This document shows, piece after piece, positions 6,818-22,636 of a DNA stretch of 38,319 nt (positions are counted from its first letter, which is position 1; every line of letters begins with the position of its first letter). The stretch is from Verrucomicrobiota bacterium. Lineage in GTDB: Bacteria > Verrucomicrobiota > Verrucomicrobiia > Verrucomicrobiales > DEV007. Both the position numbers and the translations under genes were made by a program. Below the pieces are notes generated by a model that was given only the letters and a program-made list of their open reading frames with translations, searched no databases and had not been told where the DNA came from. The stretch lies in contig JAHDID010000055.1 in assembly GCA_020630975.1 (NCBI GenBank), forward strand, positions 1 through 38,319. Direction: 5' to 3'.

Positions 6818-8080
6818 TTATTTGATCAGGCAGTTGTCTACCGGCACGATGATCATCTCGCCTCGCTTCACTTTACTACGACCATTGAGCTCGATCAGCT
6901 CCGCCTCAGTCGTAGCGTGAGAGTTCGCGATTTTATTCAGATTGTCGAGCATCTGCACCCGATAAGCGATGGCATGGTTATACTTATCCAGCGGATTATC
7001 AGGGCTAGGACCTGCAGTTGGATCGTCGGGCCCACCAGCACCTGGCAGGTCAGGACGCGGCATCGATGCCACAGGATCTTCACCACCTCCATTAGGGTCG
7101 TTTGGGAATAGCTGTGGATCACGATAGATAGGATCATCGCCACCTCCAGGGTAGTTCGGATATGTCGGGTTCACGATCGACGGATGATTCGGATCCTGCG
7201 GGCGCACCACTCGCGGATTCGGACTGACGCCATTAGGCCCTCCAGGGTAGCCTCCTGCACCTGGACCGCCAGGATAGTTTCCCGCACCTGGATAGCCTCC
7301 ACCTATGCCAGCACCAGGACCGCCAATACCAGGCACCCCGGCGCGCTGAATCTCTGCGGTAGCTCCGCCGGTATCCACCACACCAGGCAGACGAATCGTC
7401 TGGCCTACCATGATGGGATCTTCGGTCTTGATACCACTAGCTTGGGCGATTTCATAAGGTGTCGTCCGATTTGCTCGCGCAATGCCATATAGTGTATCAC
7501 CAGGCTGTACCTCATAGGTACTAGGAGCTGGCCGCACAGACTGAGGCCCCTCCGCTGCACCCGGACTAGCGGGAGCTGTGATACGCTCTGCAGAGGCCGA
7601 AGTGTTAGCGACTTTTTCCACCGGCTTCAGCGCAGCAGACTTCTTTACAGCCGGGACTGGCTTTGATTTTGCAACGGGAATTTGCTCACTAGCTCTTGTC
7701 GATGCTAGAGTGACGCCGCTATCATTGGGCTGAGCAGGCACCAGATCACCTCCGAGAGACGCCAGCGTCTCGTCGACACTCTTCAGCTCGTCCAGAGGCA
7801 ATTTTCCTTCCTGCTCCGCATCAACCAAAGACTCAGCATCTATCTCTCCCCAATCACCTTCAGGGACTTCCCCCTGGATACCGACCGGGATCGCATCGGT
7901 CTGGGCAAACTTCGACCAATCATCGCCACCTTTTTTGCCCGAGGTACCAAAGAGCCCTAAAATCGGGATCATCAAAAACCCTGCCAGAGCGAGCCCAGCT
8001 AGAGTCAAGGGCAACCAAGCGACTCCGCGATCGCGATCGTCTTCCTCTTCTTCGTCTAAAAATGAAAATGGTTCACTCAT
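6818..8080 (-). CDS. Membrane-anchored protein with two LysM domains and a Gly/Pro-rich linker
   Basis: The ATG at 8080 gives 420 aa and is preferred to the frame opening at 8266, whose first 62 residues precede an obvious N-terminus. Layout: a very acidic cytoplasmic head (residues 1-19), one transmembrane helix (about 21-45), a low-complexity linker, a canonical LysM domain (about 189-233: YEVQPGDTLYGIARANRTTP to GQTIRLPG), a Gly/Pro/Asn-rich segment (about 245-365), and a weaker second LysM (about 372-414: YRVQMLDNLNKIA to GEMIIVP). LysM domains bind N-acetylglucosamine-containing glycans such as peptidoglycan, so the protein probably tethers the inner membrane to the wall. There is no catalytic domain. 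It is convergent with the Fur-family gene and followed upstream by about 630 bp without a gene. Confidence 0.88.
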   Translation of the reverse strand: MSEPFSFLDEEEEDDRDRGVAWLPLTLAGLALAGFLMIPILGLFGTSGKKGGDDWSKFAQTDAIPVGIQGEVPEGDWGEIDAESLVDAEQEGKLPLDELKSVDETLASLGGDLVPAQPNDSGVTLASTRASEQIPVAKSKPVPAVKKSAALKPVEKVANTSASAERITAPASPGAAEGPQSVRPAPSTYEVQPGDTLYGIARANRTTPYEIAQASGIKTEDPIMVGQTIRLPGVVDTGGATAEIQRAGVPGIGGPGAGIGGGYPGAGNYPGGPGAGGYPGGPNGVSPNPRVVRPQDPNHPSIVNPTYPNYPGGGDDPIYRDPQLFPNDPNGGGEDPVASMPRPDLPGAGGPDDPTAGPSPDNPLDKYNHAIAYRVQMLDNLNKIANSHATTEAELIELNGRSKVKRGEMIIVPVDNCLIK

Positions 8081-8711
8081 AATTAATGATTTATAAAATA
8101 AACTAACCCGAATATTTAATAAATCTAAAATAAATTCACAGATGGGATAAAATTTTATTTCAGCAACTCTCCAGTCCTGCCCCTGGGCGACCTCAGTAAC
8201 TTCAGTTTTATTAAAAAATATCTTCCACCTTTGATCATTCCTCTGCAGGCGATCACCACGATCCAACGATCGATTACCAAACCCCAGTTGAGAGTGACCT
8301 CCCGCCCCTACAAACGCCCCTCACTCATACACACATCAACCAAGCATAAGTCGCTCACGCAAGGCGATATAAAAGGATCATTCCGCGCAAAACTGACCGA
8401 AAAGACATTCGGCTGGCCACTCTATAACTCCATTTAGCGCCTCCAGATTGAGACTCGCAAGGGGGAATCCTCGCAAGATTAGACCGGGTAATCCCCCCTT
8501 TACTTCTATGAATTTGCCCAAAAACAAAGCATTCCAACTCTAAAATCACAGGTAAACCACCATAGAACTGAACCTCTTTCACAATAAACCGGATTATTTT
8601 AAAAAACTAAATAGTTAAGATATTTTAAATAAATGCTCGAAAGTTTTTAAAATCATGCGAACGTTTGGAGAAGTTTTAAAAATACCGCTAAAAAATCACC
8701 CAAGCTTATCA
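8081..8711. other. Long divergent intergenic region
   Basis: This 631-bp AT-rich gap lies between the LysM gene and the lipoprotein gene. Short frames inside it show no family resemblance. The only clear structure is a G5/C6 inverted repeat at 8459-8500. The last 100 bp before the lipoprotein start are extremely AT-rich and probably hold its promoter. Confidence 0.5.
8459..8500. repeat. G-tract/C-tract hairpin
   Basis: AAGGGGGA (8459-8466) pairs with TCCCCCCTT (8492-8500) with a single bulged C, and a competing inner stem GATTA/TAATC lies at 8477-8493. It could be a terminator-like or regulatory RNA structure. I could not match it to any riboswitch class. Confidence 0.4.
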
Positions 8712-9548
8712 ATGAATCCAAAGCTCAAAACCACTCTACTCGTTCTTCCAGTAGCTTTAGCATTGCCCAGCTGCCAAAGCATCCAGCCGGGCTCTCAGCT
8801 AAAGTCTAAAACAGGAGGATTCGCAAAACTCTTTAATGTGGCCGGCGTCAAAGAGAAGACCATCTCTGCCAAGTCGGTGACTGCCAAGCCGACTTCACGT
8901 CTCGCTAAAGCGAAGCCCGCTACGAGTACTCAATATGCCAGTGCCAACTACGACTACGGCTCTGCACTCTCCAATGCCTCTGTCTCTACCACCACGCCAC
9001 ATCAGGCGGAGCCAACCATGGTCGCTGAAACTCGCAACGATGATCTACCACCAATGGAGCCGATCAGAGACGTGAGAACGCCTAAGGAAACGCCTTCTGT
9101 GCTAGTCACCGAGGCCGCCGACACACCACCGCAAATTGCTCCGACACCGCCAACTATCATCGCAGAGGCGAGTCCAGTGACAGCTCCTGCTCCTATCAAA
9201 GAAGAAGGTGGCGCGAAGGATCCGATCGATATCGATGCGACCAACGGAGAAAAAATCCTACTAGCCGAGAATCAGGACATCACCATTCGTGGCTCGAAAG
9301 GAGTCGTCATGATCAGTGGCCAGTGTAAGACTCTCGAAATCCTAGGTAGCAACCTAGAGATCTACTGCGATGTGGCCGACATGGTCGAGGTGAAGGGCGA
9401 TAGCAACAAACTCGTGATCGGTAGCATCGGTGCAGGTGATCTGACTGGTAATGAAAACTCTCTGAGCTGGGAAAAAAGTACCCAAGAGGAGACTCCAGAG
9501 ATCAAGTCATCTGGCAATAGTAACGATATCGCTAAGAGCGATTTCTAA
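8712..9548 (+). CDS. Lipoprotein with C-terminal DUF3060-like domain
   Basis: I chose the ATG at 8712 (278 aa) because it gives a clean lipoprotein signal: MNPKLKTTLLVLPVALALPS followed by Cys21, a type II signal peptide with a lipobox-like LPSC. A Ser/Thr/Pro/Ala-rich, probably disordered region follows (about residues 25-170). The C-terminal part (about 175-255) has short beta-strand repeats with the N/D and G spacing of DUF3060, for example QDITIRGSKGVVMISG, GSNLEIYC, GDSNKLVIG and NENSLSW; these resemble a small beta-helix. The function of that family is unknown. The protein should be anchored to a membrane leaflet in the envelope. It is monocistronic, and its 3' end faces the long convergent operon across a repeat-containing gap. 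Confidence 0.82.
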   Translation: MNPKLKTTLLVLPVALALPSCQSIQPGSQLKSKTGGFAKLFNVAGVKEKTISAKSVTAKPTSRLAKAKPATSTQYASANYDYGSALSNASVSTTTPHQAEPTMVAETRNDDLPPMEPIRDVRTPKETPSVLVTEAADTPPQIAPTPPTIIAEASPVTAPAPIKEEGGAKDPIDIDATNGEKILLAENQDITIRGSKGVVMISGQCKTLEILGSNLEIYCDVADMVEVKGDSNKLVIGSIGAGDLTGNENSLSWEKSTQEETPEIKSSGNSNDIAKSDF

Positions 9549-9575
9549 AACGCCAAGTCGATTGATGTCCCAAAT

Positions 9576-9602
9576 CCCTATTGGATACGAAATTCAATAG
9601 GG
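9576..9602. repeat. Inverted repeat CCCTATTG...CAATAGGG
   Basis: CCCTATTG (9576-9583) is the exact reverse complement of CAATAGGG (9595-9602). The right arm belongs to the first unit of the 21-bp repeat array, and the left arm may be an inverted partial copy. Lying between two convergent genes, it could act as a bidirectional stem-loop. Confidence 0.5.
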
Positions 9603-9629
9603 TACAATTTTCAGTCAATAGGGTACAAT
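9594..9629 (+). repeat. Two-copy array of the 21-bp-phased AATAGGGTACA repeat (locus 1 of 3)
   Basis: TCAATAGGGTACAAT occurs at 9594-9608 and again at 9615-9629, exactly 21 bp apart. The same core recurs at 26144-26177 and 36916-36970 with the same period. Here it lies between the 3' ends of two convergent genes. Confidence 0.85.
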
Positions 9630-9636
9630 CTGCCTA

Positions 9637-10593
9637 CTACCCTGCTTCTGCAGCCAAGACTTCGCTCCTACCATTTCCGATGGTAATGGCGAAGTCGAAC
9701 TGCGTATCATGGATCTGCTTCAGCAGCTTTAGCCAGCTCATCGCGCAGCTGCGGTTGACCTCTTTCACTCGATTCAGCAGGTGCACCTGCACTTTGATCA
9801 CCTCAAAGTCAGGGAACTGACCTTGCCACAGCTCTACCCCCGCGCCCTCCAGCCATAGCTCGGGTAGCTCGGGATCGATATCCGTGCACTCATGCTGCAG
9901 ATGGCGAGTCGCCTGGCCGACCACTCTTTGATATTCGGACAACAATAGACCGTGGTTATAAAACTGGAGCAGACAATCCTGGGTGATGTCTCGCCACTCC
10001 GCTAGGAACCTAGGCCGCTTAAACTGCCAGCCGATGTGGTGCTGGATCGGCTCATCCAGCCGATCGTAGAGCTCGATCAATCGCGACGAGGTGCGAAAGC
10101 TTTCGTAAAGGATGTCGCGGGTGTCATGCGAGCCGAAGTGGATGTGCGGGTAGAGCGGGTCGGCCTCGATACCGGTATTATCGCAGAACTGCTGGATCTC
10201 CTCAAAGTACTGTGTCGCTCGCGCTGTCTCGGTGGCGACTCTAGGTGCGACCGCAGCTATCTTGTGGTAATCCAGCCCTAGCCACCTGCAGACCCTTTCC
10301 GTCGCTAGCACCGGTCCATACTTGCGAGCCAGTGCGACTGCCTCTGGCGGGATAAATCCGATACCGACGCGATGCAGGAGATACTCCAAATATTTCTGCC
10401 GCGCGTCGGGCAGCATACCTTCCTCGATCGGGATCTCTTCGCCATCGCCCTCCGGCGCGCCGAAGAAGTCCTGCTTTTCATATTTTTTCTCGATCGAGCG
10501 GATGCGTTTCCACTGCTTTTTCTGCAGCTTCCGCACCTGCTTAGCATGGCGCCTTTCGCGCTTTTCTCGAGATCGCTCTAGTATCGACATCAC
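9637..10593 (-). CDS. Hypothetical protein, last gene of the SEDS/PBP/PP2C operon
   Basis: The product of about 318 aa begins with GTG then ATG; the GTG overlaps the TGA of the preceding gene, so translation is probably coupled. The first 45 residues are very basic and helical (REKRERRHAKQVRKLQKKQW), suggesting RNA, nucleoid or membrane-surface contact, or a coiled coil. The rest is a soluble helical domain rich in Trp, His and acidic residues, including HIHFGSHDTRDILYESF and a long helical tail. I see no signal peptide, membrane span or known catalytic motif, and I do not recognise the family. Position as the terminal cistron of a tightly packed seven-gene operon suggests a cytoplasmic accessory role. 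The 21-bp repeat array follows its stop codon. Confidence 0.75.
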   Translation of the reverse strand: MMSILERSREKRERRHAKQVRKLQKKQWKRIRSIEKKYEKQDFFGAPEGDGEEIPIEEGMLPDARQKYLEYLLHRVGIGFIPPEAVALARKYGPVLATERVCRWLGLDYHKIAAVAPRVATETARATQYFEEIQQFCDNTGIEADPLYPHIHFGSHDTRDILYESFRTSSRLIELYDRLDEPIQHHIGWQFKRPRFLAEWRDITQDCLLQFYNHGLLLSEYQRVVGQATRHLQHECTDIDPELPELWLEGAGVELWQGQFPDFEVIKVQVHLLNRVKEVNRSCAMSWLKLLKQIHDTQFDFAITIGNGRSEVLAAEAG

Positions 10594-11249
10594 GGTGCAG
10601 TGGCTTCGGGACGCTCATCACGAGATCGGTCACGGGTCGAAAATAGCTGAAACTCGATCCGCCGCCGCTTGGCATCCCCCTGCCCAGTAGGCCGGGTATC
10701 TAGACTGTAGTCAGTCCTCACCATCGACCCTGCAGACATCGGCACGAAATATTCTATATTCTGAAACAAAGTCCCCTGACGCTTCAGCTCCTGGAAAAAC
10801 TGGGTCACCACGACCGCACGCACCATGCCCAGCTCTGCATTCGATACTGTATCGTTGGCCAATCGCGAGGCTGCTTGGGCATAATTCGTCTGCCGCCCGG
10901 TGATGGTGCTGGTATTGCCATCTAGGTAACCGGCCAAGGCCTTATCCAAATCGTAGCCCCAGCGCCCGTATGTGCGTGTGATACGGGCCGTGTCAGCGTG
11001 GCCAATGATCTCCAGCCCATCGAACTTATGGTCACGAGACTTTTCGTCGATCGATCTCGCGATCTCCATCAGCTCGAGCTGCAACTCCTCAGAGATCTTT
11101 GCTGTCTTTGAGCCAAAGCTCTCATTGATATTGATCGATAGAGCGGCATCCACATAGCGAGGCCGGTTCAGGGTGAAGGCCAAGATAAAGACAATCAGCA
11201 GAATGAGGAATATCTCATTCTCTGGGCGAATCCCACGAGCCAAATTCAT
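10590..11249 (-). CDS. Single-span membrane protein with OmpA/MotB-like periplasmic domain
   Basis: The product of 219 aa has one transmembrane helix (about residues 12-28: EIFLILLIVFILAFTL), then a periplasmic domain that follows the OmpA-C/MotB plan. That plan includes a helical lead-in, the GHAD signature (83-86, within LEIIGHADTARI), a helix SNAELGMVRAVVV at 136-148 that matches the family's N-x-x-LS-x-x-RA, and RRRIEF near 195-200, which matches the final NRRVE strand. OmpA-C domains bind peptidoglycan. Unlike MotB, ZorB and ExbD, the membrane helix has no central Asp, so proton-driven motor function is doubtful. An insertion of about 30 residues lies between GHAD and the second helix. 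Two bases separate it from the MotA-like gene upstream, which suggests a stator-like pair. Confidence 0.78.
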   Translation of the reverse strand: MNLARGIRPENEIFLILLIVFILAFTLNRPRYVDAALSININESFGSKTAKISEELQLELMEIARSIDEKSRDHKFDGLEIIGHADTARITRTYGRWGYDLDKALAGYLDGNTSTITGRQTNYAQAASRLANDTVSNAELGMVRAVVVTQFFQELKRQGTLFQNIEYFVPMSAGSMVRTDYSLDTRPTGQGDAKRRRIEFQLFSTRDRSRDERPEATAP

Positions 11250-11251
11250 CG

Positions 11252-11917
11252 CTACTGCATGCCCCCTTTGATACTGGTCAACTGCTGTAGCACCTCATCG
11301 CGATGCGATTCTTCCACCTCTCGGCGGCTGGCATCTTCATTGACGAACTTGCGCACCTCTTCCAGCAAGAGATTGGTTTTCTCGAGTAAAGCATGATGCT
11401 CGGCTATCTCGCTCTCGACCTGCTGCAGCCGCTCCCGCGAGGTGCCGAGGATCTGTGCTGTCGCCTGTAGCTCTTCATTGAGCTGAGCTGTCAGCTGTGG
11501 GTCCAGAGCTAGAGATATATTATCCCCAGACACATAGGGCGAATCATCTCGCTCGATCAGCCCGCCGAAAAACCAACCCACCAGACTACTCAATAGTGCG
11601 CCACCAGCTCCTGAAAAGATGGCCGCTGCATCTCTATCGATCGACTCGATCGCGAGGATCAATCCGGTCAGGGTGTACAAGTAGCCGGTTAGTTTTACTA
11701 GGTTACTCGCCTGGGGTCTACCCATCGACTCCACCGATCGTATACCGATGATGCCGGCGATAGCCGTATGGATCATCGCCCACGTGCGGAAGATGAGCTG
11801 ATTGGCTGCGGCGTCGACAGAAGTCAGCACCCCGCTCAAAAACAAAATCGAAGAGGCACCCACCAGCATGTAAGAAATCCATGCCACTCGGTGCATACTA
11901 AAGGTTGTCAACTTCAT
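11252..11917 (-). CDS. MotA/ExbB-like four-helix membrane protein with coiled-coil tail
   Basis: The product of 221 aa has four predicted transmembrane helices (about residues 11-31, 44-60, 74-91 and 100-121), then a coiled coil (about 140-215) that should lie in the cytoplasm. Helices 3 and 4 (LTGYLYTLTGLILAI and GAGGALLSSLVGWFFGGLI) resemble the paired channel helices of MotA/TolQ/ExbB proteins in their GxxxTxxGLI and ALxSSxxG patterns. The match is distant and is made by eye. The ATG overlaps the stop of the PP2C-like gene (ATGA), and the OmpA/MotB-like gene follows by 2 bp. Gene order therefore supports a two-component membrane complex. It could instead be an unrelated four-helix scaffold. 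Confidence 0.6.
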   Translation of the reverse strand: MKLTTFSMHRVAWISYMLVGASSILFLSGVLTSVDAAANQLIFRTWAMIHTAIAGIIGIRSVESMGRPQASNLVKLTGYLYTLTGLILAIESIDRDAAAIFSGAGGALLSSLVGWFFGGLIERDDSPYVSGDNISLALDPQLTAQLNEELQATAQILGTSRERLQQVESEIAEHHALLEKTNLLLEEVRKFVNEDASRREVEESHRDEVLQQLTSIKGGMQ

Positions 11918-12909
11918 CTCGTGTTATTCAATAATTCTTGTTTGAAGGTGATCCACTCATAGACAAACCACGTCCCTAATGCCGACACCTGAAGCATGAT
12001 GATCAGCAGCATCAAAAACAATATCCAGAACCCAGCACGACCTGGCTTTTTCGGCGGCTTTTCTTTCTTGCCCTTGGCCTTCACTTCTGGCTCTGGTGCT
12101 GCCCCCCCTGCTGCTGCACTCGAGGATTCCATCTCTGTGGCTTTCGACTTTCTCGGTGGGTACTTGATCGCTTTGGGAGCCAACTCTGGTGGCATCGGAA
12201 TCACGGTGAAACAGATGTCGTCCCGCAGAGCATCAGTATCTTTGGGGATCTCTCGGTTTACCCGTTTAAACACTTCGTCCGGTGTACGCCCGATCAGATC
12301 CAAATAAAAATCCGGAATATGCTTGGTCAAGCCATCGGAAAACATATAGATATTCAGCGAGGGATCGCTATCAAACTGATACACACTCTCGGCACGGTAT
12401 GGCTCGGGTAGATCACCTAGTCGGGCATCGGCCGTCAGCCCCATCAGCTCGGCAGGTGCTACGGTAAACTCATCGACACCCTCGGGGCGCGGCTCATCAG
12501 CTCCGTCGTGGCAAAACCGAAGGGCACCCCGCTCATTGCTCAGCGCTATCGTGCAGTCCCCCACGCCGCCGACGTAGAGTACCTTATCGTAGATAAAGAT
12601 CACCGAACAACACAGCACACCATTCTCCAGCTTCTTGCCTTTCAGCTGCCGATCGATATCATTCAGTATCTCGGCTACCAGTTCCTTGGGATGCTCTCGG
12701 ACTCCGGATATCTCGAGCTTTTGCACCGCGAACTGCACCACATTCTTTGCGATCTGAGTCACTTCTTTGTCCACAGGCGCAGGTGCATCGGCGACCAGCC
12801 CGATCATAGCAGGCGAGGAAGCCTGCACGAGGTACGCTTTGCAGATGTCACCGAACGGCTCATTATACAGAGCGTAGAAGCTGTTTTCTTTAGTGACTAA
12901 ATCGATCAT
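11914..12909 (-). CDS. PP2C-like protein phosphatase, degenerate, with C-terminal membrane anchor
   Basis: The product of 331 aa follows the PP2C/PPM fold in motif order: GLVADAPAP at 37-45, VGDCTIAL at 116-123 (family GDSRxxL), MFSDGLTK at 189-196 (family xxSDGL), and LRDDICFTVI at 228-237 (family DDxTxxV). The first metal motif, normally DGxGG, keeps Asp41 but lacks the glycines, and the strict GDSR is GDCT. Metal binding may therefore be altered, and the protein may be a weak phosphatase or a phospho-sensor. A Pro/Lys/Ala-rich linker (about 240-290) leads to one transmembrane helix (about 294-316), which holds the phosphatase domain on the cytoplasmic face. It lies 4 bp after the kinase-like gene, a typical kinase-phosphatase pairing. 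Confidence 0.8.
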   Translation of the reverse strand: MIDLVTKENSFYALYNEPFGDICKAYLVQASSPAMIGLVADAPAPVDKEVTQIAKNVVQFAVQKLEISGVREHPKELVAEILNDIDRQLKGKKLENGVLCCSVIFIYDKVLYVGGVGDCTIALSNERGALRFCHDGADEPRPEGVDEFTVAPAELMGLTADARLGDLPEPYRAESVYQFDSDPSLNIYMFSDGLTKHIPDFYLDLIGRTPDEVFKRVNREIPKDTDALRDDICFTVIPMPPELAPKAIKYPPRKSKATEMESSSAAAGGAAPEPEVKAKGKKEKPPKKPGRAGFWILFLMLLIIMLQVSALGTWFVYEWITFKQELLNNTR

Positions 12910-12913
12910 GATA

Positions 12914-15529
12914 TTAGCGGGTTATAGCGACGAAGTTGTATGGCCTATCGGCAAAGTTAAACAGAAAGGCTTCGTCCAACCTCTGCTTCACTTGGTTGCG
13001 ATAGACAGGATTCTGCGCCCACTCTCCGATCAGATCGTAGAGCGCAGCTGTCTGATCGCAGACGTATTGAAAGTATCGATCCGGAGCCATATAAAACTCC
13101 TCAGCCATACTAGGCCACTTGGGCACGGCACCCCTTCCCCAGATCCGAAACCTGAGTAGACCTAGATTATAGGCATGCAGCTGGTATTTCTCCTCCAAGG
13201 TAAATTCAGTCTTGCCCTGCTCGAGCTGAAACATCAGCCCTGGGTCGCGGTAGTCATCTTTACCTGGATTAGCCGTAGGCTGCCACTCGTGGATCGATTC
13301 ATACGATCCGTAGTCGGCCAGCCACATGGTAGAGTAGTCATCGCTGACCAGGATATCGTCGACTGAGCAATCGGAAAATGCCAGTCCCGCAGACAGCGCA
13401 CGACTGTAGAACTCGGTGACCGAAGCCACCAGACGATCGGTATCCTCCACTGAGAGAGACGCCCCCTTGGACTCGAGGATCTTTTGTAGCGATTGATACT
13501 CCTTCGACGTTAGAACCCAGCAGGCACTCTTCACCTCCTCGGTATCGCGCAGGGGCTTGTAGCTACCGCTCAGCAGATGCCGCTTCATGGTATCTGGCAG
13601 CAGGTTGTGCGCAGGGTTTGAGATGATCGGCCACGCGCGGCGCAGTGCCTCTCTCCGCTCGGACAGATCATCCCCATAGTAGATACGCACGTAGATCTTC
13701 GAATCATCTTTCTTATCCGCACCGATCAACAGATCGCCTTGGCGGATCTGTACCGGAGCACTGTCGAGATTTTTGATACCCAGCGATCGGCAGAAGGAAT
13801 TGATCATGGTATGCGACTGAGCGATGTCGCCATGAGTCGCGACACTCTGTGGCGAGTAACCATAGCGCGCACGCGATCCGGCCTGAATCGAAAATCCGAA
13901 GTATCCGACACTCTCGCCCCCCACGACGAGGAAGTAGTTCATATCACGGATCTCGACATTCGAGCCGATCTCTGCAGCACCCGCATTCTGCTCGATCAAG
14001 TCGGAGTGTTGGGTAGGCTCTACCCTGAAGGCGGAGTCGAGTGTGGAATTGAAAGTCCTGCCGGTCTTCGTGCCATGGGCATCCGATACCGACGAGAAAG
14101 GCGCCAGATAGAATCCGGCGTCCTCAGCCAGATTCCCTCCAAACAGGTGATACATATACTGCTCGCCCTGATCTTTAGACGGCGCAAAAATGATATTAAA
14201 TATACCCGTACGCAGCCCTGGCAGCTCAGTCGGCGAAAGATTGATCCACATCTCGCGCATGGTCGGGTTGGTACTGATAGCCAGACCGATCTGTGCCATC
14301 GGATTCGCCATGACCACACCAGACGTACCCGCACCGTCCTCCTGCTGGAACTGCGGGCAGAAGTTAACACTGGCCACATTAAGACGATCGCGCACCGGTG
14401 TATCGAGCAGCGTCCAGTCGGCCTTCCCTGGAGGGCGATAGGCCAGCAGCTCCACCTGGCCTTTCTGACCGCGGCCCTGCGTGCTGCGCCATTGTAGGAT
14501 ATCATTGGCATCCTCCTGGTAGTACTGGCAGCGCAACTTGCCACCAGTAGCATCTGACAAGTAGTTCATCAGTTTTTTCGGCGACACCGAGTTCTGCGGC
14601 AAGGTCTCGTGATAATAGACAAACACACGCTGCCCTTTACCCGCTGTCGTCGGATAGACATCGATCATTCGCAGCAACAGCTTGTCTGAAGGATAATTAC
14701 CTATGTGGAAACGATACCCCTCGGGGAAAGACATCCGTGACACCGTAGCGATCTGCCGTGAGAACTCACCAGCATCATTCTTCGTCCGAGTGATCGGAGT
14801 GTGCTGCTCGGTCCAGAGGTAGCCCTCGTGGTCATCGCTCATCGTCGATGAGTCTTTGATCAAAAAGTTACTCGAGTGACCGTGCTCGCGCTGGCGGATC
14901 TTGGATAGGTAATAGAACTCATCCTCACACAGTCCCCCGCCGATATCTTTCAACACCTGACACTGCACATAGAGACGCTTGGCGATATCGTCCTCCACGG
15001 TACGACTGAGTTTCTCGACGATGTATTCATCATCATCCTCATTGAGGATCGTCACACCACGAGCGACCAGCTCTTTGATGATCGCACTGGAGATCAACAG
15101 ACCAAACTCCTGACAAAGATTGGCATCAAAATCGTCATACCACTTACGAAATGACTTAAGCGTCTGTGGCTGCAGAGCGATCAAAATCTCGAACACCGCT
15201 CCATCTCGCAACAGCAAGCGCAGAATCTGATTAGTCTTTGGCAGTGTCACCAGATGCGTGGCGACTGCTTGAGCGAATTTTTTCTGAACATCAGAGAGCC
15301 GGTCTTCGGAACCCGGCGGCGAATCAAATTGCTTCAGTAGCTCTCTGGGAAAATGATAATTCTCAGGGTGGCCATTCTCGTCCAAAACTTCGCCCACATT
15401 CCACGCGCGGAATGTATCCATGAGCATTTTCGAGGCTTCGTCGAAGCTATCGTCTTTCTTTACCTTAGCGCGAGTGTGGTCGTCTGGTCCGAATAGCCAG
15501 TCTTTGAGCTTGTCAGTCAGTGATGCCAT
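12914..15529 (-). CDS. Large cytoplasmic protein with C-terminal pseudokinase-like domain
   Basis: The product of 871 aa has no signal peptide or membrane span. Residues 1-230 are helical and charged; about 230-560 form a mixed region I do not recognise. The C-terminal 280 residues follow a protein-kinase plan by eye. KIYVRIYYGD (611-620) would be the N-lobe Lys strand. AFSDCSVDDILVSDD (717-731) aligns with the HRDLKxxNILL catalytic loop, LADYGSY (737-743) with the DFG segment, and YRDPGL (760-765) with the APE region. A helix at 778-797 (LEEKYQLHAYNLGLLRFRIW) aligns with helix F. The catalytic-loop His-Arg is replaced by Phe-Ser, so I call it a pseudokinase or a very divergent kinase. It sits between a transpeptidase and a PP2C-like gene, and probably senses or relays wall-synthesis status. 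Confidence 0.65.
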   Translation of the reverse strand: MASLTDKLKDWLFGPDDHTRAKVKKDDSFDEASKMLMDTFRAWNVGEVLDENGHPENYHFPRELLKQFDSPPGSEDRLSDVQKKFAQAVATHLVTLPKTNQILRLLLRDGAVFEILIALQPQTLKSFRKWYDDFDANLCQEFGLLISSAIIKELVARGVTILNEDDDEYIVEKLSRTVEDDIAKRLYVQCQVLKDIGGGLCEDEFYYLSKIRQREHGHSSNFLIKDSSTMSDDHEGYLWTEQHTPITRTKNDAGEFSRQIATVSRMSFPEGYRFHIGNYPSDKLLLRMIDVYPTTAGKGQRVFVYYHETLPQNSVSPKKLMNYLSDATGGKLRCQYYQEDANDILQWRSTQGRGQKGQVELLAYRPPGKADWTLLDTPVRDRLNVASVNFCPQFQQEDGAGTSGVVMANPMAQIGLAISTNPTMREMWINLSPTELPGLRTGIFNIIFAPSKDQGEQYMYHLFGGNLAEDAGFYLAPFSSVSDAHGTKTGRTFNSTLDSAFRVEPTQHSDLIEQNAGAAEIGSNVEIRDMNYFLVVGGESVGYFGFSIQAGSRARYGYSPQSVATHGDIAQSHTMINSFCRSLGIKNLDSAPVQIRQGDLLIGADKKDDSKIYVRIYYGDDLSERREALRRAWPIISNPAHNLLPDTMKRHLLSGSYKPLRDTEEVKSACWVLTSKEYQSLQKILESKGASLSVEDTDRLVASVTEFYSRALSAGLAFSDCSVDDILVSDDYSTMWLADYGSYESIHEWQPTANPGKDDYRDPGLMFQLEQGKTEFTLEEKYQLHAYNLGLLRFRIWGRGAVPKWPSMAEEFYMAPDRYFQYVCDQTAALYDLIGEWAQNPVYRNQVKQRLDEAFLFNFADRPYNFVAITR

Positions 15530-15571
15530 TTGTTGAGAAGTGAGAAAATAGTCAGTCAGTGGTTGTTTGTT

Positions 15572-18196
15572 TTACCTACCCTCGATGTAGCCAGTCATCG
15601 TAGTGACCAAGCCACTATCGATTACCCGTTTCCACAAGCCGCCGTTGAAGCCCTCCGTGGGTGAGTTGACCGAAACGACTGCGCACAAGCCCCTTTGGCC
15701 GCTGGCATTGGGCTCGCCGTCTTTGCCGTTTTCTGGCTCGAGGTAAAAGGTGATCATGTTGTAGTTCCCTCGCCGTGCGGAGGGGATATTGATGCGGAAA
15801 GTTCCTGTCTTTGAGTACAACCGATACTCCTCTGGTGTGCTGCGCCTCAGATGCCCTGCTGTGCCTCTCGATGGTGCCTGTAGCCGCTCACGGATCCACT
15901 CATGGTTTTCATCGCTCAGCACCAAGTCTGGCCACTCAGCGGGAGCTGGCATCCTACCCGCTTCAGGGGTGCGGACTAGGGTCGACTCCACGGCCTTGCC
16001 TGTCACTAGGCGAGTCATACAGCGTGCCATATCCAGATTCGTCCAGCGACCAAAGTTGGCCCCACCGATCACGATGTAGAGAAAGTCGTGGCCGATACGC
16101 ATATTGTCGGAAAAGATCAGTCGGCTGTGCTCTGGTGCACTACCCGCTAGAAATGGCACCAGATCTTCTTTAGATAGATCCAACTGGGCAAAGAAATCAA
16201 TCAACTCACCATAAGCCTCGTCGACATTGGCATGGCTAAACGCGCCATCCCCGAGGCTCACCTGTATGCTGAATAGCGAATTGAGCGCCTGCACAAAACG
16301 CGAATCAATCATACCACTGAGCACGTTTTTATCGGTATGCTGAAATCGCGACAGATCTGGAGCCTGATAGAGCACCTTATCGCCCACCTGATAGGCTGCC
16401 TTGCGCTCGCTCGTGGTGGGCAGCTCCCCATCGCCCTCGGAGGCGAGTGCAGATAGCAGATGTGCCATGAAAAAGGCATTCGAAGAACGGGCAAATGCCT
16501 CATCTGCCTGAGCGCCAAAATCGCTACGCTTCGACGCGCCTCCAGGGAAGACACCACTGGTGTGTAGAGACGGGATGGTGCTCTTCGGCAGGCTGTAGCC
16601 GAGGATAGAGCCCATCGTCTGCCCCTTTCTCGGGACGACAAAGCTGCGCAGATCTGAATTGGCATGGATACCCGCTGCATACAGGTAGGGCTTTCCGGAG
16701 CTACCTACCGGATGCTCCCAAAAGTTCCGATTCAGTCGATACCGCGGCCGAGTCGATAGGAAGTCCGCACCACCTGTGCCCGGAAAGACGGAATCCGCAA
16801 CAGCCAGCACTTCGCCAGTCTCATTCATGATCGTCACTGCGATCTCCAGATAGCTACTTCCCCTAGCCGAGGACACCACATTCTCCAGCTGCGACTGCAG
16901 TAGCGGATCGATGGTCAGGATGAAGTCCTGCTTTTTCAGTGTATTCGATACCTCTTTGGCATTGCGCTCCTGGTCGAGATAGATCTGTGCGATCGAGTCA
17001 TCGAGCGTTTTGAGAAACTCCAGACTATGTGGCAGATCATTATTCATCCGCACCCGGCGGGCCACGCCATCGTGGAAGTGGGAGAAAGAGAACGCATCCT
17101 GCGAGCTAGACGTCGGCTGCCAGTAGTAGGGATTTTCTCGAGCTTCCTCAGCTGTGAACACCTTGAAATACAGCGGTCTCGCCCGCTCCCCCAGTGACGC
17201 GCCACGTCGATACAGTAGCTCTGGCACACGGTCGCCACCGATGGGTGCCGTATAGATCACCGTACCTGCCGGGCCGGCATTCTCCGTCCAGCCGTGCTCA
17301 TCCCGGATCGTGAAGTACGAAGAGCTACCGGGTATCAATAGATTCAACAACAGCAGTCCATCCTCCTCCTCAGTGAGAAATACTTCGAGTATATTCGGCG
17401 GAGTATCACCCGGCTGCTTCGGCCTACCATTGAAGCGATAGCCAAAGTGCGGCTTCTGCCCGTGGAATGGATCGCCAAACTCGGTATACCCCCAGTCAGC
17501 AGCCTTGGGATAGCCATCAGAGACATTCAGAGACTGCGCCATCTGCTCCTCGCCATCAAAGATCACCCGCAGCTCGAGAGCAGCAGGTTTCTCCTCACCC
17601 TCCTCATCCTTTCGGCTCGGGCGATCTGAGCGATACAGGAGCTTACCAGTCCAGCTATGGCCACGATAGAACGGCGTACCTATCTTGCGGCGATTGCGAT
17701 CGATATGCAGACGGTCGCGACGCACATTCCAGCCAAAGGTACTTTGCTCCGCGCCCTGCAGAAGCCGGATGATGTCGTCTTTCAGCGGACTGCGCTGGTA
17801 AAACAAACGATTGCGCCCCGACATGAGCGACGATTCATCGATACCATAGGCACTCAGACTCTCAAATGCCCCTGCACCACCCTCGACCGGATTTTTAGCC
17901 GCTGTGGCTAGAGCCACGAGATCGATCTCGCCATCCTCTACCAGATCGGCGACCTTTTCATAATAGGGATCGTGATCTAGCCGAGCGGGGCGTATCCTGC
18001 GCCCATCTTCGTACAGCCCCTGCTCCTTTTCCCAAGCATCCAGCGCAGCAAAAGTCATCACAGCAGCACCGCCGAGTAATAGCAATACACCGCCAAACCG
18101 ATCGAAGGGGTAGCGCGAGCGCTGCGCAGCGGCACTGCGGCGGATCTTACCACCACGCCCCAGCTTCCGGCGCCATCTATTGATCTCTCGCATCAT
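15572..18196 (-). CDS. Penicillin-binding-protein-like transpeptidase, membrane anchored
   Basis: The product of 874 aa has a basic cytoplasmic N-terminus (1-33) and one transmembrane helix (about 34-52). A large periplasmic region of about 360 residues follows that does not resemble the usual PBP dimerisation domain. The transpeptidase domain starts at LTIDPLLQSQLE (427-438), the family's tTiD-x-x-lQ entry. All three catalytic motifs are present: SxxK as SSGK (499-502, in HPVGSSGKPYLYA), SxN as SSN (571-573) and KTG (796-798, in YSKTGTFR). The spacing between SxN and KTG, about 220 residues, is longer than usual. The role should be crosslinking of peptidoglycan or a related polymer made by the adjacent SEDS protein; SEDS-PBP pairs are an established unit. 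The ATG overlaps the upstream stop (ATGA), indicating coupled translation. Confidence 0.85.
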   Translation of the reverse strand: MMREINRWRRKLGRGGKIRRSAAAQRSRYPFDRFGGVLLLLGGAAVMTFAALDAWEKEQGLYEDGRRIRPARLDHDPYYEKVADLVEDGEIDLVALATAAKNPVEGGAGAFESLSAYGIDESSLMSGRNRLFYQRSPLKDDIIRLLQGAEQSTFGWNVRRDRLHIDRNRRKIGTPFYRGHSWTGKLLYRSDRPSRKDEEGEEKPAALELRVIFDGEEQMAQSLNVSDGYPKAADWGYTEFGDPFHGQKPHFGYRFNGRPKQPGDTPPNILEVFLTEEEDGLLLLNLLIPGSSSYFTIRDEHGWTENAGPAGTVIYTAPIGGDRVPELLYRRGASLGERARPLYFKVFTAEEARENPYYWQPTSSSQDAFSFSHFHDGVARRVRMNNDLPHSLEFLKTLDDSIAQIYLDQERNAKEVSNTLKKQDFILTIDPLLQSQLENVVSSARGSSYLEIAVTIMNETGEVLAVADSVFPGTGGADFLSTRPRYRLNRNFWEHPVGSSGKPYLYAAGIHANSDLRSFVVPRKGQTMGSILGYSLPKSTIPSLHTSGVFPGGASKRSDFGAQADEAFARSSNAFFMAHLLSALASEGDGELPTTSERKAAYQVGDKVLYQAPDLSRFQHTDKNVLSGMIDSRFVQALNSLFSIQVSLGDGAFSHANVDEAYGELIDFFAQLDLSKEDLVPFLAGSAPEHSRLIFSDNMRIGHDFLYIVIGGANFGRWTNLDMARCMTRLVTGKAVESTLVRTPEAGRMPAPAEWPDLVLSDENHEWIRERLQAPSRGTAGHLRRSTPEEYRLYSKTGTFRINIPSARRGNYNMITFYLEPENGKDGEPNASGQRGLCAVVSVNSPTEGFNGGLWKRVIDSGLVTTMTGYIEGR

Positions 18197-21100
18197 GCCT
18201 GTATCGATTTCCTTTCATTTTGCACACTGATCGCAGCCGCGCTGATCAGGCAGATGAGTAGCGATGTCTCGAGCACATCAGAGGAGCTATTGAGACCCAG
18301 TAGAAAGACATTCTTACCCGTCAGAGGCGCATAGCGGAAGCCGAGGTTACTGATGACCATGTAGATCGAGATACAGCCGATCACCCAGCAGGTCAGCTTG
18401 CCCGCCGCCTCCCAAAATCCCAGTCGCGCTGTGACCTGCGATCGACCAGATAGGCGCGGTATCGTGAGCCGCGCGGAAAAGTAGAGTAACGCAAGCTGCC
18501 ACACCGCAATCGCCAGCACCCCGGTCAACCCAAACTGCCCTCGCACAAAGGTGCTGATCAGGTAGTCGTTCAGAAAGTTATAGCGCGAGCGATCGAATGG
18601 CAGCGTGCCAAATCCATCGCCAAACCAACCGCCCATGGCATACACATCGACGATTTTCTGCTCCTCACTGATCTCCATCGCCCGCTGAGTGCCCTCGGAG
18701 TTGAGGAAATCCCGATCGACTGAGCGAAAGCGCAGATACTGACTGTAGAGCGATTCTTTGCGACTCTCCGTCTTTGGCACCACCACTTTTCGGGCGATCG
18801 CATTCACCGGGATGAACTGCACCGCTATCGCCATGAATAGACTCAGTCCCAGGATCGGTAACCCAATGCGTCTGGCCGTCTGGTTCGGCAGTGCCCGTAG
18901 CACCAGCAGGGTACTGAAGACAATAATCGCCGCCAGCACTGCCTTGATCCCACGTACGTGAGGAATGATCTCGAATGGGTAGTCATCGTGATGGATCGCC
19001 TGCAGGAAATTGCCAATAAAGCGGACACTCCACATCACCGCTAGGCCCGCCAAAAGCCAGAGCATGCCCCGCCAGATCCAACTGGACTGAGACGACGCGT
19101 AGCAGAGAAATAGCCATGTCGCTGGTAGCAATACCAAGATCGCTCCCAAGTCCTGGCGGAATACCGCAAACATCCCATGGATCGCCGCCAACAGCAAAAA
19201 CAACGCGGCAAACACGGGCCAGCATCGCTCGGTGAGAGCTCTCGAGTCGGCACTGCGCGCTCCACCCACGCCGACGATCCAGCTAGTCGCTAGGATGATG
19301 ATCGGTAGGTAAAATGCCGACTTCTGCACAGGACCGATTCGCTCACCAGATCCCGCCAGCCAGACGAGTGACAACGTGATAAACAACACCAGTAAACCCA
19401 GCAAAAAGCCAAACCACTTGCGCAAGCGCAGCTTGCTGACCAGCCGGTTGCCGAGAGAATCCTGCAGCCCGATCACGATCGCCGGCACGATCAATCCCGA
19501 TAGCAAGATCGGTGCGAGCACTGCTATAGCGGTAGTATTCTCTACCAGCCAGTTCGACGATGCGAGCGGGGTCGGGTTCCACAGATTCACATTGTCTGGA
19601 AAGACATGGTCGGCAGACAGCGCCAGCACCAGGCGAGTCAGCACCAGCCCTAGCACCGCTACCAGAAAAGCACCGTGCAGATTGCCCAGCTTGGCCACGG
19701 CCAGTGCCGTGATCAGCATAGCGATGACCACGAGCAGGATCATCAGCGGCGTCGGTCCGAGCACATCGGTATGGATCACCGCAGCCCCTCCCGAGGCAGT
19801 CGGCAGCTCCCAGCTATGGCTATCTGGAGCTTTCAGCGGTGTCGTGGCGAGTAGCGCGGGCTTATCGCTACGGATCTCGATACGGGTGCCGGAGCCACTG
19901 GCCTCGGCTGGTAGGTAGGGCAGCGTCAGATACGACGGCAGACCAGAGGTGAGTGGCAATCGCACCGACTCCTGACGAGTCGGGATCACCTCGCCCTCAC
20001 TCACCGCTTTCATCTCGCTCAGGGTGAGAAACTCGACCTTCTGTCGCTTCAGATTATTGATGATCTCCGGTAGCGTGCGCATCGTGCGGGTATTGATGTC
20101 ATGCATCAGCACCACCGCACCATCATGGATATTACCCACCACATGGCGGATCACTTCATCATCATTCGCCGTCTTGCGAAACTCCTGCGGATCGATCGAC
20201 CAAAAGATGGTCTCCATGTTGTATTTATCCGCGATCTGCTGGGCCAGCCACTTTCGGCTTTTGCCCATAGCCCCGTATGGCGGGCGAAAGAATCGAGGCA
20301 GAGGGCCCGACTCCGCGATCACTTGGTTCGACTTGGTGATCTGGTCGTCTGCTTTCAGGTACCACGATGGCGAGTGATCCCACGAGTGATTGCCGATCTC
20401 ATGGCCCTCCTCACGGATACGCTGCATCAGCTCAGGGTTGCGCTTGGCATTGTCGCCTTTCACAAAGAATGTCGCTGCGATCTGGTGGCGGCGTAGGGTG
20501 TCCAGCACCTTGGGCGTGATCTTATCGACTGGCCCATCGTCGAAGGTCAGGGCCACCTGAGTGCCAGGGCGAGCCGAAGTATTGTACTTCGAGATACGAT
20601 CCCCCACCGCAGGCTCGAAGTCGCCCATATACCCACCCGAGCTACCGCTACCCAGCTCCGATGGCGATGGATTGGGATTCCGATACAGCCAGTCCGATAC
20701 CAGAAAGTGCACCGTATCCTCGCGGCGGAGAAACTCCATAGGCAGTCGCAACCGATCAAATCTCGCCACATCGACTAATTTCCCCTCCACCTGGTTGCGC
20801 AGGAAAGTCAGCTCAAACACATGCGTCTGAAAGCGCTTCCGCACGGTATTCCAGCGCGTCACTCTCAGATAGTTCGGATCCGACTTGCTGGTAAAAGTCG
20901 ACTCTGGAGCGAAGCTACTGCCACCGACGACTAGCCCTCCAGTGGGGAGATCGGGATCGAGTGCCAGCAGATGGAGCTTTTCGCCCCGATCTCGGCCTAG
21001 CTGAGTCAAAAACAAGCCGGAGCGATTGATGTCTTTTCTACCCTTTGAGCGATCGGGGAATTGCCACGCCTTCGGGTAGCGGAGCGAGGCCTTCTCGACG

Positions 21101-21651
21101 ATGTCCGTGGCACCGCTGGGATGAGTCACCACCAGCCGGCCTGCTTTCTCGCCATTGGCCCCGTCTCGCCAGGCAATGCGATAAGTCTGCCCACGCCACT
21201 CGATGTCGCTGCTCCCCTCGATAGGGGTGGTCACGGTCTCGAGGTCTAGCTTGCGCCCAGGGCTAGATGGGTAGTCGACTATCAACTGGCCTTTGCCCCG
21301 CACCGTCTGCCGAGCCACCAGCTGGCGCTTCTGGCTAGCGCCGCCCTTGCCACTGATCTCGATAGCTGCCCCGGATGTCCGAGGTAGCGCCCAAGCGATC
21401 GGGCTCCACGCATCGCCATCGGCTGTGGCGGCCAGATTAGCCCGAAACCCCGTCTGATAGATCTCCACCTTGGGCTCGCCGAGCAGTCCGTAGACGATCA
21501 GCGTGCCAGCCGTTCCTCCCGAGATCACCGTCAGAGCGACCAGTACATACCTCAGTACCCGCAGTCGGCGAAAGGTAGCACCGAGCAGCAGGGCGAGCGC
21601 CCCGCACACTAGAGGAGCGGCGAATAAGATGCTTTGATACAGTGGCGGCAT
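18193..21651 (-). CDS. NodB polysaccharide deacetylase fused to SEDS (RodA/FtsW-like) polymerase
   Basis: The product of 1152 aa starts with two hydrophobic helices (about residues 5-25 and 35-56), then an extracytoplasmic beta-rich region. A NodB domain (about 364-550) has TFDDGP (369-374), the HSWDH metal motif (422-426), RPPYG (456-460), WSIDP (484-488) and LMHD (515-518), so the catalytic and zinc ligands look intact. About ten further transmembrane helices (635-1143) resemble SEDS glycosyltransferases: FRQDLGAILVLLP (831-843) recalls the family's QPDLG segment, MGGWFGDGFGTLP (1006-1018) the GSGGLxGKG segment, FVRGQFGLTGVL (1035-1046) the EELGFxG segment, and PLTGKNVFLLGLNSSS (1109-1124) the PxTGxxxPFxSxGGSS segment. 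Residues differ from canonical RodA at several of these. The protein would polymerise and deacetylate a glycan strand. It is the first gene of a seven-gene operon. Confidence 0.85.
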   Translation of the reverse strand: MPPLYQSILFAAPLVCGALALLLGATFRRLRVLRYVLVALTVISGGTAGTLIVYGLLGEPKVEIYQTGFRANLAATADGDAWSPIAWALPRTSGAAIEISGKGGASQKRQLVARQTVRGKGQLIVDYPSSPGRKLDLETVTTPIEGSSDIEWRGQTYRIAWRDGANGEKAGRLVVTHPSGATDIVEKASLRYPKAWQFPDRSKGRKDINRSGLFLTQLGRDRGEKLHLLALDPDLPTGGLVVGGSSFAPESTFTSKSDPNYLRVTRWNTVRKRFQTHVFELTFLRNQVEGKLVDVARFDRLRLPMEFLRREDTVHFLVSDWLYRNPNPSPSELGSGSSGGYMGDFEPAVGDRISKYNTSARPGTQVALTFDDGPVDKITPKVLDTLRRHQIAATFFVKGDNAKRNPELMQRIREEGHEIGNHSWDHSPSWYLKADDQITKSNQVIAESGPLPRFFRPPYGAMGKSRKWLAQQIADKYNMETIFWSIDPQEFRKTANDDEVIRHVVGNIHDGAVVLMHDINTRTMRTLPEIINNLKRQKVEFLTLSEMKAVSEGEVIPTRQESVRLPLTSGLPSYLTLPYLPAEASGSGTRIEIRSDKPALLATTPLKAPDSHSWELPTASGGAAVIHTDVLGPTPLMILLVVIAMLITALAVAKLGNLHGAFLVAVLGLVLTRLVLALSADHVFPDNVNLWNPTPLASSNWLVENTTAIAVLAPILLSGLIVPAIVIGLQDSLGNRLVSKLRLRKWFGFLLGLLVLFITLSLVWLAGSGERIGPVQKSAFYLPIIILATSWIVGVGGARSADSRALTERCWPVFAALFLLLAAIHGMFAVFRQDLGAILVLLPATWLFLCYASSQSSWIWRGMLWLLAGLAVMWSVRFIGNFLQAIHHDDYPFEIIPHVRGIKAVLAAIIVFSTLLVLRALPNQTARRIGLPILGLSLFMAIAVQFIPVNAIARKVVVPKTESRKESLYSQYLRFRSVDRDFLNSEGTQRAMEISEEQKIVDVYAMGGWFGDGFGTLPFDRSRYNFLNDYLISTFVRGQFGLTGVLAIAVWQLALLYFSARLTIPRLSGRSQVTARLGFWEAAGKLTCWVIGCISIYMVISNLGFRYAPLTGKNVFLLGLNSSSDVLETSLLICLISAAAISVQNERKSIQA

Positions 21652-22065
21652 CGAGATTGGCAGGTCGATGAGTGAGTGAAGGTGAAAATGAGTCAGATCA
21701 AATCAGGTCATCCATACACCGAAAACAAGCCCGATGATGTTGGCGCGGTCTGGCCTCGGCTCGCTTGCAGATGGCTGTCTGCATAGCGAACCCAGCTATC
21801 TCCGATGAGAATTCTGGTACACATGAAGGATTCTGACAAATTGGCAGGAGATCAGCAGTCTCAGTTTGGTGGGTCTATGACCAAACAGAGGGGTCGCCAC
21901 TGCTTCAACTTCTTTTTTCGACCTTATAGGGAGACAGATGTTCAGCATTCCTTAAATAAATCGTCACCGAAACCCTGCTAAATCCCATCCTATAGGGCGT
22001 ATATGCCTCATAGGTCCTATAGCAGTGCGAACAAAATTCAGACCACGAAGACTCAAGCCCACGGC
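21652..22065. other. Intergenic region upstream of the SEDS/PBP operon
   Basis: This 414-bp gap has no convincing gene. It should contain the promoter of the seven-gene minus-strand operon. Around 21989-22022 there are CCTATAGG and ATAGGTCCTAT palindromes, placed where they could terminate the minus-strand DUF2200 gene. I cannot assign a function to them. Confidence 0.4.
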
Positions 22066-22437
22066 CTAAGCCGCTCGAAGAATCTTCTCCATCGCTTTCC
22101 CCTTCGCCAGTTCATCTACCAGCTTATCCAGATACCGGCACTGCTGCACGAGAGGATCCTCCAACTCCTCGACCCGATATCCGCAGATCACACCGGTAAT
22201 CAGTTTTGCATTGGGGTTCAGCGTGGCCCCTTCGAAAAACTCAGCGTAGGTCACATCCCCTGCGACCACCTCTCCCAAGGCAGCCTCATCATAGCCGGTC
22301 AGCCATTCGATCACCTGATCTAGCTCAGACTTCGTCCGTCCCTTTTTCTCGACCTTGGCTAAAAGCATCGGGTATACCGCCGAAAAGCTCATTTTCGCAA
22401 TCTTCTCTGCGGTTCCTGCGGGTGGTTGTTTCATCAA
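22066..22437 (-). CDS. DUF2200 family protein
   Basis: The product of 123 aa matches DUF2200 along its length. The conserved features I recognise are KIAKMSFSAVYPMLLAKVEK near the N-terminus, KKGRTKSELDQVIEWLTGY in the middle, LITGVICGYRVEELEDPLVQ, and the C-terminal RYLDKLVDELAKGKAMEKIL. The family is small, soluble and of unknown biochemical function, and is scattered among bacteria. The length is standard for it. The gene is alone on this strand between the big operon and a divergent outer-membrane protein. Confidence 0.88.
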   Translation of the reverse strand: MMKQPPAGTAEKIAKMSFSAVYPMLLAKVEKKGRTKSELDQVIEWLTGYDEAALGEVVAGDVTYAEFFEGATLNPNAKLITGVICGYRVEELEDPLVQQCRYLDKLVDELAKGKAMEKILRAA

Positions 22438-22579
22438 TCTAGCCTATCCCAGAGGGCAGACTTGTCCACCTTACTCACGACCCACAAACCTTACCAAAAA
22501 ATTTGTAAGCCCATCCCAAACCCTAACGTCAGCTTAAAGGTTGAACTCATCACAATCTTTTCATAGTTTTTGATCGGAC

Positions 22580-22636
22580 GTTAAAAAACGTTTGACGACG
22601 CCTCTTGTTTTTGATTTTTTAACAACCGTTAAAAAA
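22580..22636. promoter_or_regulatory. Three GTTAAAAAA boxes upstream of the outer-membrane protein gene
   Basis: GTTAAAAAAC occurs directly at 22580-22589 and 22628-22637. An inverted copy at 22615-22623 forms a perfect 9-bp dyad (TTTTTTAAC, 4 nt, GTTAAAAAA) ending 25 bp before the ATG. It could be an operator, or a 5' UTR hairpin controlling the porin-like gene or the divergent DUF2200 gene. Confidence 0.45.

Follow-up and report, generated by a model that had tools for sequence, protein, structure and literature searches.

Seven adjacent genes in a Verrucomicrobiota bacterium (Verrucomicrobiales; DEV007) form a genuine, conserved and unusual cluster that appears to encode a phospho-regulated variant of the wall synthases that pair a SEDS polymerase with a class B penicillin-binding protein (PBP), with a SEDS branch that the version of the Pfam SEDS model applied here does not recognize. 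The genes lie on contig JAHDID010000055.1 of assembly GCA_020630975.1, a 7.1 Mb draft genome (G000), and the whole contig of 38,319 nt is referred to here as the window. They are named g1 to g7 in the order of transcription and all occupy the minus strand between positions 9637 and 21651. We favor, with moderate confidence, an accessory peptidoglycan synthase that a phosphorylation cycle would regulate and that would de-N-acetylate its product during synthesis. The evidence consists of gene presence, order and conservation, of motifs and of kinship between profiles. We prefer a signal-controlled wall synthase because this SEDS-PBP branch is found repeatedly beside genes for kinase-like proteins, PP2C-like proteins or true Ser/Thr kinases, and the dedicated, signal-controlled wall-remodeling apparatus suggested in a preliminary description of the window is upheld in part.

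Eight loci were read, in genomes G000, G410, G217, G412, G497, G476, G461 and G488. They were entered via matches to the PBP or to g3, which makes the SEDS neighbor, not the PBP, the informative part: in all eight, a SEDS gene of this branch lies beside the PBP gene or within 4 kb of it. Three further matches to the PBP profile, in G522 and G536 (fragments) and on the PBP contig of G546, were left unread. Kinase-like and PP2C-like genes accompany the SEDS-PBP pair in five of the eight loci (G000, G410, G217, G497 and, in divergent orientation, G412). Single-sequence support for a pair resembling g3 and g4 is modest in G497 (E 4e-4 and 0.001), and the values for G412 are E 0.003 and 4.6e-6. A profile that includes the G497 protein also finds G546 (E 3.8e-132), where a g3/g4-like pair is followed by two kinases and a fragment of the PBP lies on another contig.

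True Ser/Thr kinases are encoded nearby in G412, G476, G488, G497 and G546. Those with C-terminal PG_binding_1 domains occur in the loci of G476 (L066) and G546 (L061), and in a further G476 kinase there is a C-terminal domain of the ribosomal L12 type. Upstream in G476 are three kinase-like genes (Pfam was run on two of them) and a gene for an FHA protein. A kinase-FGE gene separates SEDS and PBP in G488, where the contig ends inside the SEDS gene, leaving its N-terminal part out of view, and G412 has a PEGA kinase and a D-Ala-D-Ala dipeptidase. Among the loci read, only the three that have all seven genes showed the NodB domain, the g5-g6 pair and g7. Small unassigned families were observed upstream of the SEDS gene at L015 (3565-5238), L037 (1707-2786) and L040 (1382-2467), and the L015 member pairs with those of L037 (E 4e-14) and L040 (E 4e-11).

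The product of g1 (18193..21651, minus strand; 1152 amino acids, aa) has two N-terminal membrane segments, a NodB domain at about residues 362-550 and a SEDS-like domain at about 635-1152. On its sequence the NodB assignment is certain (Pfam 4.9e-30), with the motifs TFDDGP at 369, GNHSWDH at 420 and HDI at 517 intact in g1 as well as in L009. The best NCBIfam matches are to PdaB, PgdA and NodB models, all under their curated cut-offs; g1 resembles the PgdA and PdaB deacetylases in having a NodB domain with TFDDGP and GNHSxxH, but differs from them in being fused to a SEDS-like polymerase. The NodB part is predicted to be periplasmic, on the same side where SEDS enzymes work, because the residues between membrane segments one and two include the basic stretch RRLRVLR (positive-inside rule).

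The C-terminal part of g1 appears to be a divergent SEDS polymerase, from a far branch that escapes the Pfam model. An eight-row profile of the branch, compared by hhalign with FtsW and RodA of E. coli and of the organism itself, scored 44.4 (probability 63.7, E 6.7e-5). Five unrelated proteins gave 12.8-23.6 and five shuffles of the columns 13.5-23.0; with fewer rows the probability was 39.3. In all three alignment modes D1029 of g1 falls under D297 of FtsW, and the position is Asp in 12 of 12 rows. D297 is described as a putative catalytic residue, whose D297A variant fails to complement and is dominant-negative, in the available part of a study of FtsW (PMC8765783). The D-L/V-G, G-x-G and P-x-TG patterns are kept in all seven rows of the branch. 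Taken together, the Pfam match for NodB, the profile link to FtsW/RodA and the D1029/D297 alignment uphold the NodB-SEDS fusion that had been proposed. A profile search of solved structures with the SEDS part returned nothing usable. When the genome was searched for the family, two ordinary SEDS genes turned up at other places, and g1 was not among the matches.

The adjoining g2 (15572..18196, minus strand; 874 aa) is predicted to encode a transpeptidase like the class B PBPs, with a single membrane segment at its N-terminus. The motifs SxxK (499/502), SSN (571-573) and KTG (796-798) are present, as they are in all eight family members including the window, and with the N-terminal anchor they bear out the earlier assignment. 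The match to the pbp2_mrdA model (2.6e-5) is under its cut-off. L015 (29.2 bits) and L040 (52.7 bits) reach the PF00905 cut-off, which is not reached by g2 of the window or by L010, L009, L037, L038 and L039. Solved structures gave weak PBP matches in a profile search with g2 (best E 0.022). Known SEDS-PBP pairs serve division, elongation and sporulation (FtsW-FtsI, RodA-PBP2 and SpoVE-SpoVD). The window cluster is like them in its adjacent polymerase-like and transpeptidase-like genes, the place of the catalytic Asp and the PBP motifs. It differs in the missing Pfam SEDS match, in LGLNS at the place of the ISYGG motif, in its long N-terminal part, in the NodB fusion of the three loci and in the 13 hydrophobic segments that a simple hydropathy scan finds from residue 635 of g1, against ten helices in the SEDS fold.

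Regulation of this pair may be the task of the next two genes. The product of g3 (12914..15529, minus strand; 871 aa) has an N-terminal part of about 600 aa without assignment and a kinase-like C-terminal part (R615, D720, D725 and D739-YGSY). A six-row profile of the latter scored 49.5 against five kinases, where ten shuffles gave 9.8-18.0; a four-row profile scored 37.5 against four kinases and 32.3 against five. In hhalign, R615, D720, D725 and D739 pair with the ATP-binding Lys, the Asp, the Asn and the Asp of a Pfam-confirmed kinase. The product of g4 (11914..12909, minus strand; 331 aa) is a PP2C-like protein with a C-terminal membrane segment (D41, D118, D192 and D230/D231). Its six-row profile scored 43.9 against two PP2Cs, one picked by eye and the other by Pfam (42.7 against the Pfam-picked one alone), where ten shuffles gave 8.7-22.2. 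PF13672 is matched by four of the six g4 members at 0.1, with 6.2e-5 at best, and the g4 of the window is not among them. Profile searches of solved structures with g3 and g4 returned nothing usable.

The kinase-like and PP2C-like assignments of the preliminary description are supported by these scores, but its view of g4 as a phosphatase with altered metal motifs is mostly not borne out, and g3, which it called degenerate, may be either an active or an inactive kinase. D720, D725 and D739 (with GSY after the Asp of DFG) are invariant in all six g3 members. At the place of the ATP lysine four members have Lys, and Arg is found only in the window and L010. The His-Arg of HRD is absent from all six, and Asp replaces the catalytic-loop Asn. 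In g4, D41, D118, D192, D230 and D231 are invariant in six of six members (D21 in one of the alignments only), and the sole change is Ala for the Gly that follows the first PP2C Asp. Phosphatase activity of g4 is plausible because every member has aspartates where PP2Cs usually have them; the metal-binding roles of particular aspartates are presumed. Actinobacteria have rodA, pbpA, pknA/B and pstP in a cluster, which likewise brings genes for a wall synthase, a kinase or kinase-like protein and a PP2C together. The window cluster differs from it in g3, with Arg for the ATP lysine, no His-Arg of HRD and no match to the PASTA model, and in the added OmpA-like pair and deacetylase.

The seven genes are likely to form a single transcript, judging from their spacing. 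The junctions g1/g2, g4/g5 and g6/g7 are overlaps of 4 bp, and gaps of 42, 4 and 2 bp separate g2/g3, g3/g4 and g5/g6; this spacing of the open reading frames (ORFs) agrees with that reported before. Simple scans of positions 9400-22600 found no excess of terminator-like signals (10, against a mean of 8.1 in shuffles) or of promoter-like signals (6, against 8.2), and the GC content of the cluster is not distinctive.

Conservation of the set beyond close relatives, on which the preliminary description had staked its proposal, was found in G217, a single genome from a different family within the order. Counterparts of all seven genes are present there, six in the same order and on the same strand, and g7 beside g6 but inverted. 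The proteins of the window and G217 share 24.6-35.7% identity over the parts aligned by BLASTP, and the weakest counterpart is g7 (66 residues, E 1.8e-5). In a genus-mate (G410; locus L010, equated with its contig C98 by length and match position) the set runs from a g1 truncated at the edge of the contig through to g7, with protein identities of 57-78% to the window. The ratio of nonsynonymous to synonymous differences (pN/pS) between these two is 0.16-0.37 across the seven genes, with g1 covered over 833 codons only and synonymous sites saturated. By sequence comparison, the seven genes are held together under purifying selection.

Beyond g7 the flanks differ. By eye, L010 has lpxA- and lpxC/fabZ-like genes there, and the window has genes for a DUF3060 lipoprotein-like protein that adjoins g7 (8655-9548, plus strand) and for a protein with LysM domains in two stretches (6818-8266, minus strand). 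A look for an empty insertion site via the LysM gene, the one flanking gene used, gave no site: relatives match its product mostly over the LysM stretch.

The cluster is rare, with counts that vary with the query and with samples of the phylum and order drawn from larger groups. The g3 profile finds 3 of 386 genomes of the order Verrucomicrobiales, and the g3 protein 2 of 387 genomes of the phylum. The g6 profile finds 3 of 387 phylum genomes, one of them G268, which has a different gene row, and a four-row SEDS profile finds 2 of 337. The PBP protein matches in 4 of 56 relatives; in the family of G217, the PBP profile matches in 8 of 68 genomes and the four-row g3 profile in 3 of 68. Among 33 genomes of the genus, a seven-row SEDS profile finds three, one being the variant locus G412. 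A peptide-pattern scan of the genome contigs with g3 gave one locus, and plasmids gave no match for g3 or the SEDS part. The three carriers of all seven genes have genomes of 7.1, 7.9 and 8.6 Mb.

Of the remaining genes, g5 and g6 may connect the machine to the wall. The product of g6 (10590..11249, minus strand; 219 aa) has a single membrane segment, in which Glu12 is invariant, and then an OmpA-like domain that is probably peptidoglycan-binding. The Pfam OmpA match (0.0039) is under the cut-off, but a g6 profile scored 95.8 (probability 98.1) against three OmpA-like proteins from G268 and from Rhizobium and Sinorhizobium plasmids, where 20 shuffles gave at most 21.2, and the OmpA-like assignment is supported. 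Another OmpA-like comparison, involving the related G268 protein, gave 73.3, and the scores against E. coli Pal (22.9) and MotB (20.2) are weak. Glu12 is present in all three seven-gene clusters and, by eye, in the Rhizobium relatives, at a place where MotB and ZorB have Asp (also by eye). For ZorB the acidic residue is given as D24/D21 in the available part of one study (PMC11890865).

Just before g6, g5 (11252..11917, minus strand; 221 aa) encodes a protein with membrane segments (the window protein has three hydrophobic segments, that of L009 has four) and a helical tail. It had been called MotA/ExbB-like, a label for which position, topology and an acidic partner are the sole grounds and which is not established. 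Against TolQ/ExbB/MotA g5 scored 17.9, nothing beyond chance with shuffles of up to 18.2, and the 13 proteins of the genome that match PF01618 do not include it. There is a weak link to the protein encoded before OmpA in the Rhizobium and Sinorhizobium plasmids (26.9, against 9.0-17.9 for 20 shuffles), a score to which the unrelated membrane protein FtsW of E. coli comes near with 22.8. The last gene, g7 (9637..10593, minus strand; 318 aa), present in the three seven-gene loci and inverted in G217, encodes a protein without a membrane segment by hydropathy and without a known domain, which matched none of nine other unassigned proteins.

These plasmids, in Sinorhizobium (L034, 8165-12510) and Rhizobium (L035, 7853-12471), carry a conserved row of four genes. 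The first two products have no assignment and are 46% and 51% identical from one plasmid to the other; the others are a coiled-coil membrane protein and an OmpA protein whose membrane segment contains Glu. We considered the row as a kinase, PP2C, MotA and OmpA series in the order of the window and dropped this, as Pfam found no kinase or PP2C in the first two genes.

We suspect that these parts could work together as follows. The divergent SEDS polymerase of g1 would make glycan strands from a lipid-linked precursor, presumably lipid II, and the PBP would crosslink them. The periplasmic NodB domain would strip N-acetyl groups from the nascent strands. The SEDS-PBP pair would be tuned from the cytoplasm by g3, as a kinase-like protein, and by g4, which is PP2C-like and anchored in the membrane. 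The g5-g6 pair may grip or sense peptidoglycan, and either relay its state to the regulators or hold the machine in place, and g7 could be a cytoplasmic adaptor. We infer that the OmpA-like pair is an alternative wall-sensing or anchoring input, because other loci carry kinases with PG_binding_1 domains. The activities, the topology, the direction of signaling and lipid II as the substrate are all proposed here from gene content and similarity.

Several observations weigh against such a synthase. No kinase-like, PP2C-like or kinase gene accompanies the SEDS-PBP pair in the 29 kb read in G461, and no g3- or g4-like gene was found in the 32 kb read in G476. The Pfam kinase model matches none of the six g3 members at 0.1, and a three-row g3 profile reached only E 0.076 and 0.49 against two single kinases. 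The Pfam SEDS model (PF01098) matches none of the five members scanned (the window and four relatives, of eight members). AlphaFold models, each from an alignment of two rows (window and L010), have a mean predicted local distance difference test (pLDDT) of 29.7 for g3 and 39.2 for the SEDS part. Finally, ISYGG, in the last extracellular loop of FtsW, is replaced by LGLNS in all eight members, and the substrate could differ. In the available part of the FtsW study (PMC8765783), Y379A and G380A, both within ISYGG, do not complement.

The altered loop also counts in favor of a different product. The SEDS-like domain could handle another lipid-linked glycan (a capsule, a spore-like coat or a surface polymer), which the NodB and PBP-like parts would modify and attach to the wall, a possibility that we consider unlikely. 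The seven-row SEDS profile matches no canonical SEDS protein at E 0.001 in the 33 genus genomes, and the two ordinary SEDS genes already in the genome would fit this view as well. However, the place of the catalytic Asp and the D-L/V-G, G-x-G and P-x-TG patterns are kept in every row compared, the PBP partner retains SxxK, SxN and KTG in all eight loci, and the neighbors include peptidoglycan-binding domains and a D-Ala-D-Ala dipeptidase.

It is quite improbable that g3-g6 are mainly a wall-stress or defense-type sensor akin to Zorya or TerY-P rows, with the SEDS-PBP pair as an effector that seals or hardens the wall after attack. Zorya consists of ZorA and ZorB plus an effector (ZorC/D or ZorE), and the TerY-P triad of vWA, PP2C and kinase. 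The sporadic occurrence of the cluster within the order would suit a defense system, as would a row in G268 (L022, contig C5, 2722-8276) for vWA, PP2C, kinase, coiled-coil membrane and OmpA/ZorB-like proteins, the last of which is related to g6. This row, possibly a TerY-P-type row joined to a motor pair, shows neither SEDS nor PBP among the inspected ORFs of at least 200 aa. By contrast, g1-g7 include no vWA gene by Pfam, and g3 and g4 are divergent. PADLOC gave no strong defense match for g1-g7 (the best, g3 to PD-T4-6, at 0.0039); with the Zorya models g6 matched ZorB at only 0.074, and there was no match to ZorA or to an effector. G412 and G497, moreover, have kinase-like and PP2C-like genes with the SEDS-PBP pair and no OmpA pair was found in them. 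The TerY-P and Zorya labels were considered for g1-g7 and not adopted.

A further possibility is a motor-coupled, phospho-gated wall synthase, in which an ion-driven g5-g6 pair gripping peptidoglycan would drive or gate a SEDS-PBP machine, with wall building and de-N-acetylation united in one protein. We give this little credence. The acidic membrane segment and OmpA-like domain of g6, with a membrane protein encoded before it, are as in ZorA-ZorB, MotAB and ExbBD, but the acid is Glu instead of Asp, g5 has no measurable kinship to TolQ/ExbB/MotA and no Zorya effector was matched. No second wall synthase coupled to a MotAB-type motor is known to us; if true, the arrangement could provide a locally modified, perhaps lysozyme-resistant wall on demand. 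ZorA-ZorB and MotAB/ExbBD are 5:2 motors, according to the available part of one report (PMC11890865). An ordinary duplicate of FtsW/FtsI or RodA/PBP2, specific to the lineage and joined by hitch-hiking neighbors, is highly improbable: SEDS-PBP pairs are near-universal wall synthases in the available part of a survey (PMC8406291), which would favor it, but two canonical SEDS genes lie elsewhere in the genome, the g1 branch is distant from canonical SEDS in profile comparison and the seven genes are kept together across two families.

Elsewhere in the window, positions 27340-30780 (plus strand) encode a protein of 1146 aa with a weakly kinase-like N-terminal part (PASTA-kinase model 0.0025) and Sel1 repeats (9e-10), by its sequence a second degenerate kinase-like gene in the window. 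Further on, an ORF of 110 aa (31497-31829, plus strand) overlaps one of 221 aa (31738-32403, plus strand), which by eye is ADP-ribosyltransferase-like (YHGC...GHGIYFW) and has no Pfam match at 0.01. The couple is a possible toxin-antitoxin pair.

A cluster of this kind was not found described in the open-access full-text literature, a scope that leaves aside most subscription papers and all preprints. SEDS proteins and PBPs have been surveyed across phyla, including the Planctomycetes-Verrucomicrobia-Chlamydiae (PVC) group, in the part of that survey available (PMC8406291), and ftsW and ftsI are reported as not essential in a planctomycete in the available part of another study (PMC6952346). 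From the perspective of wall synthesis, a far SEDS branch recurs with Ser/Thr phospho-signaling genes, and three loci add a deacetylase fusion and an OmpA-like membrane pair. If our interpretation is correct, polymerization, crosslinking, glycan modification and wall sensing would be gathered in one gene row, and the phospho-control of wall synthesis could be addressed with few parts. The cluster may thus represent a little-known way for bacteria to switch the synthesis of a special wall on and off.

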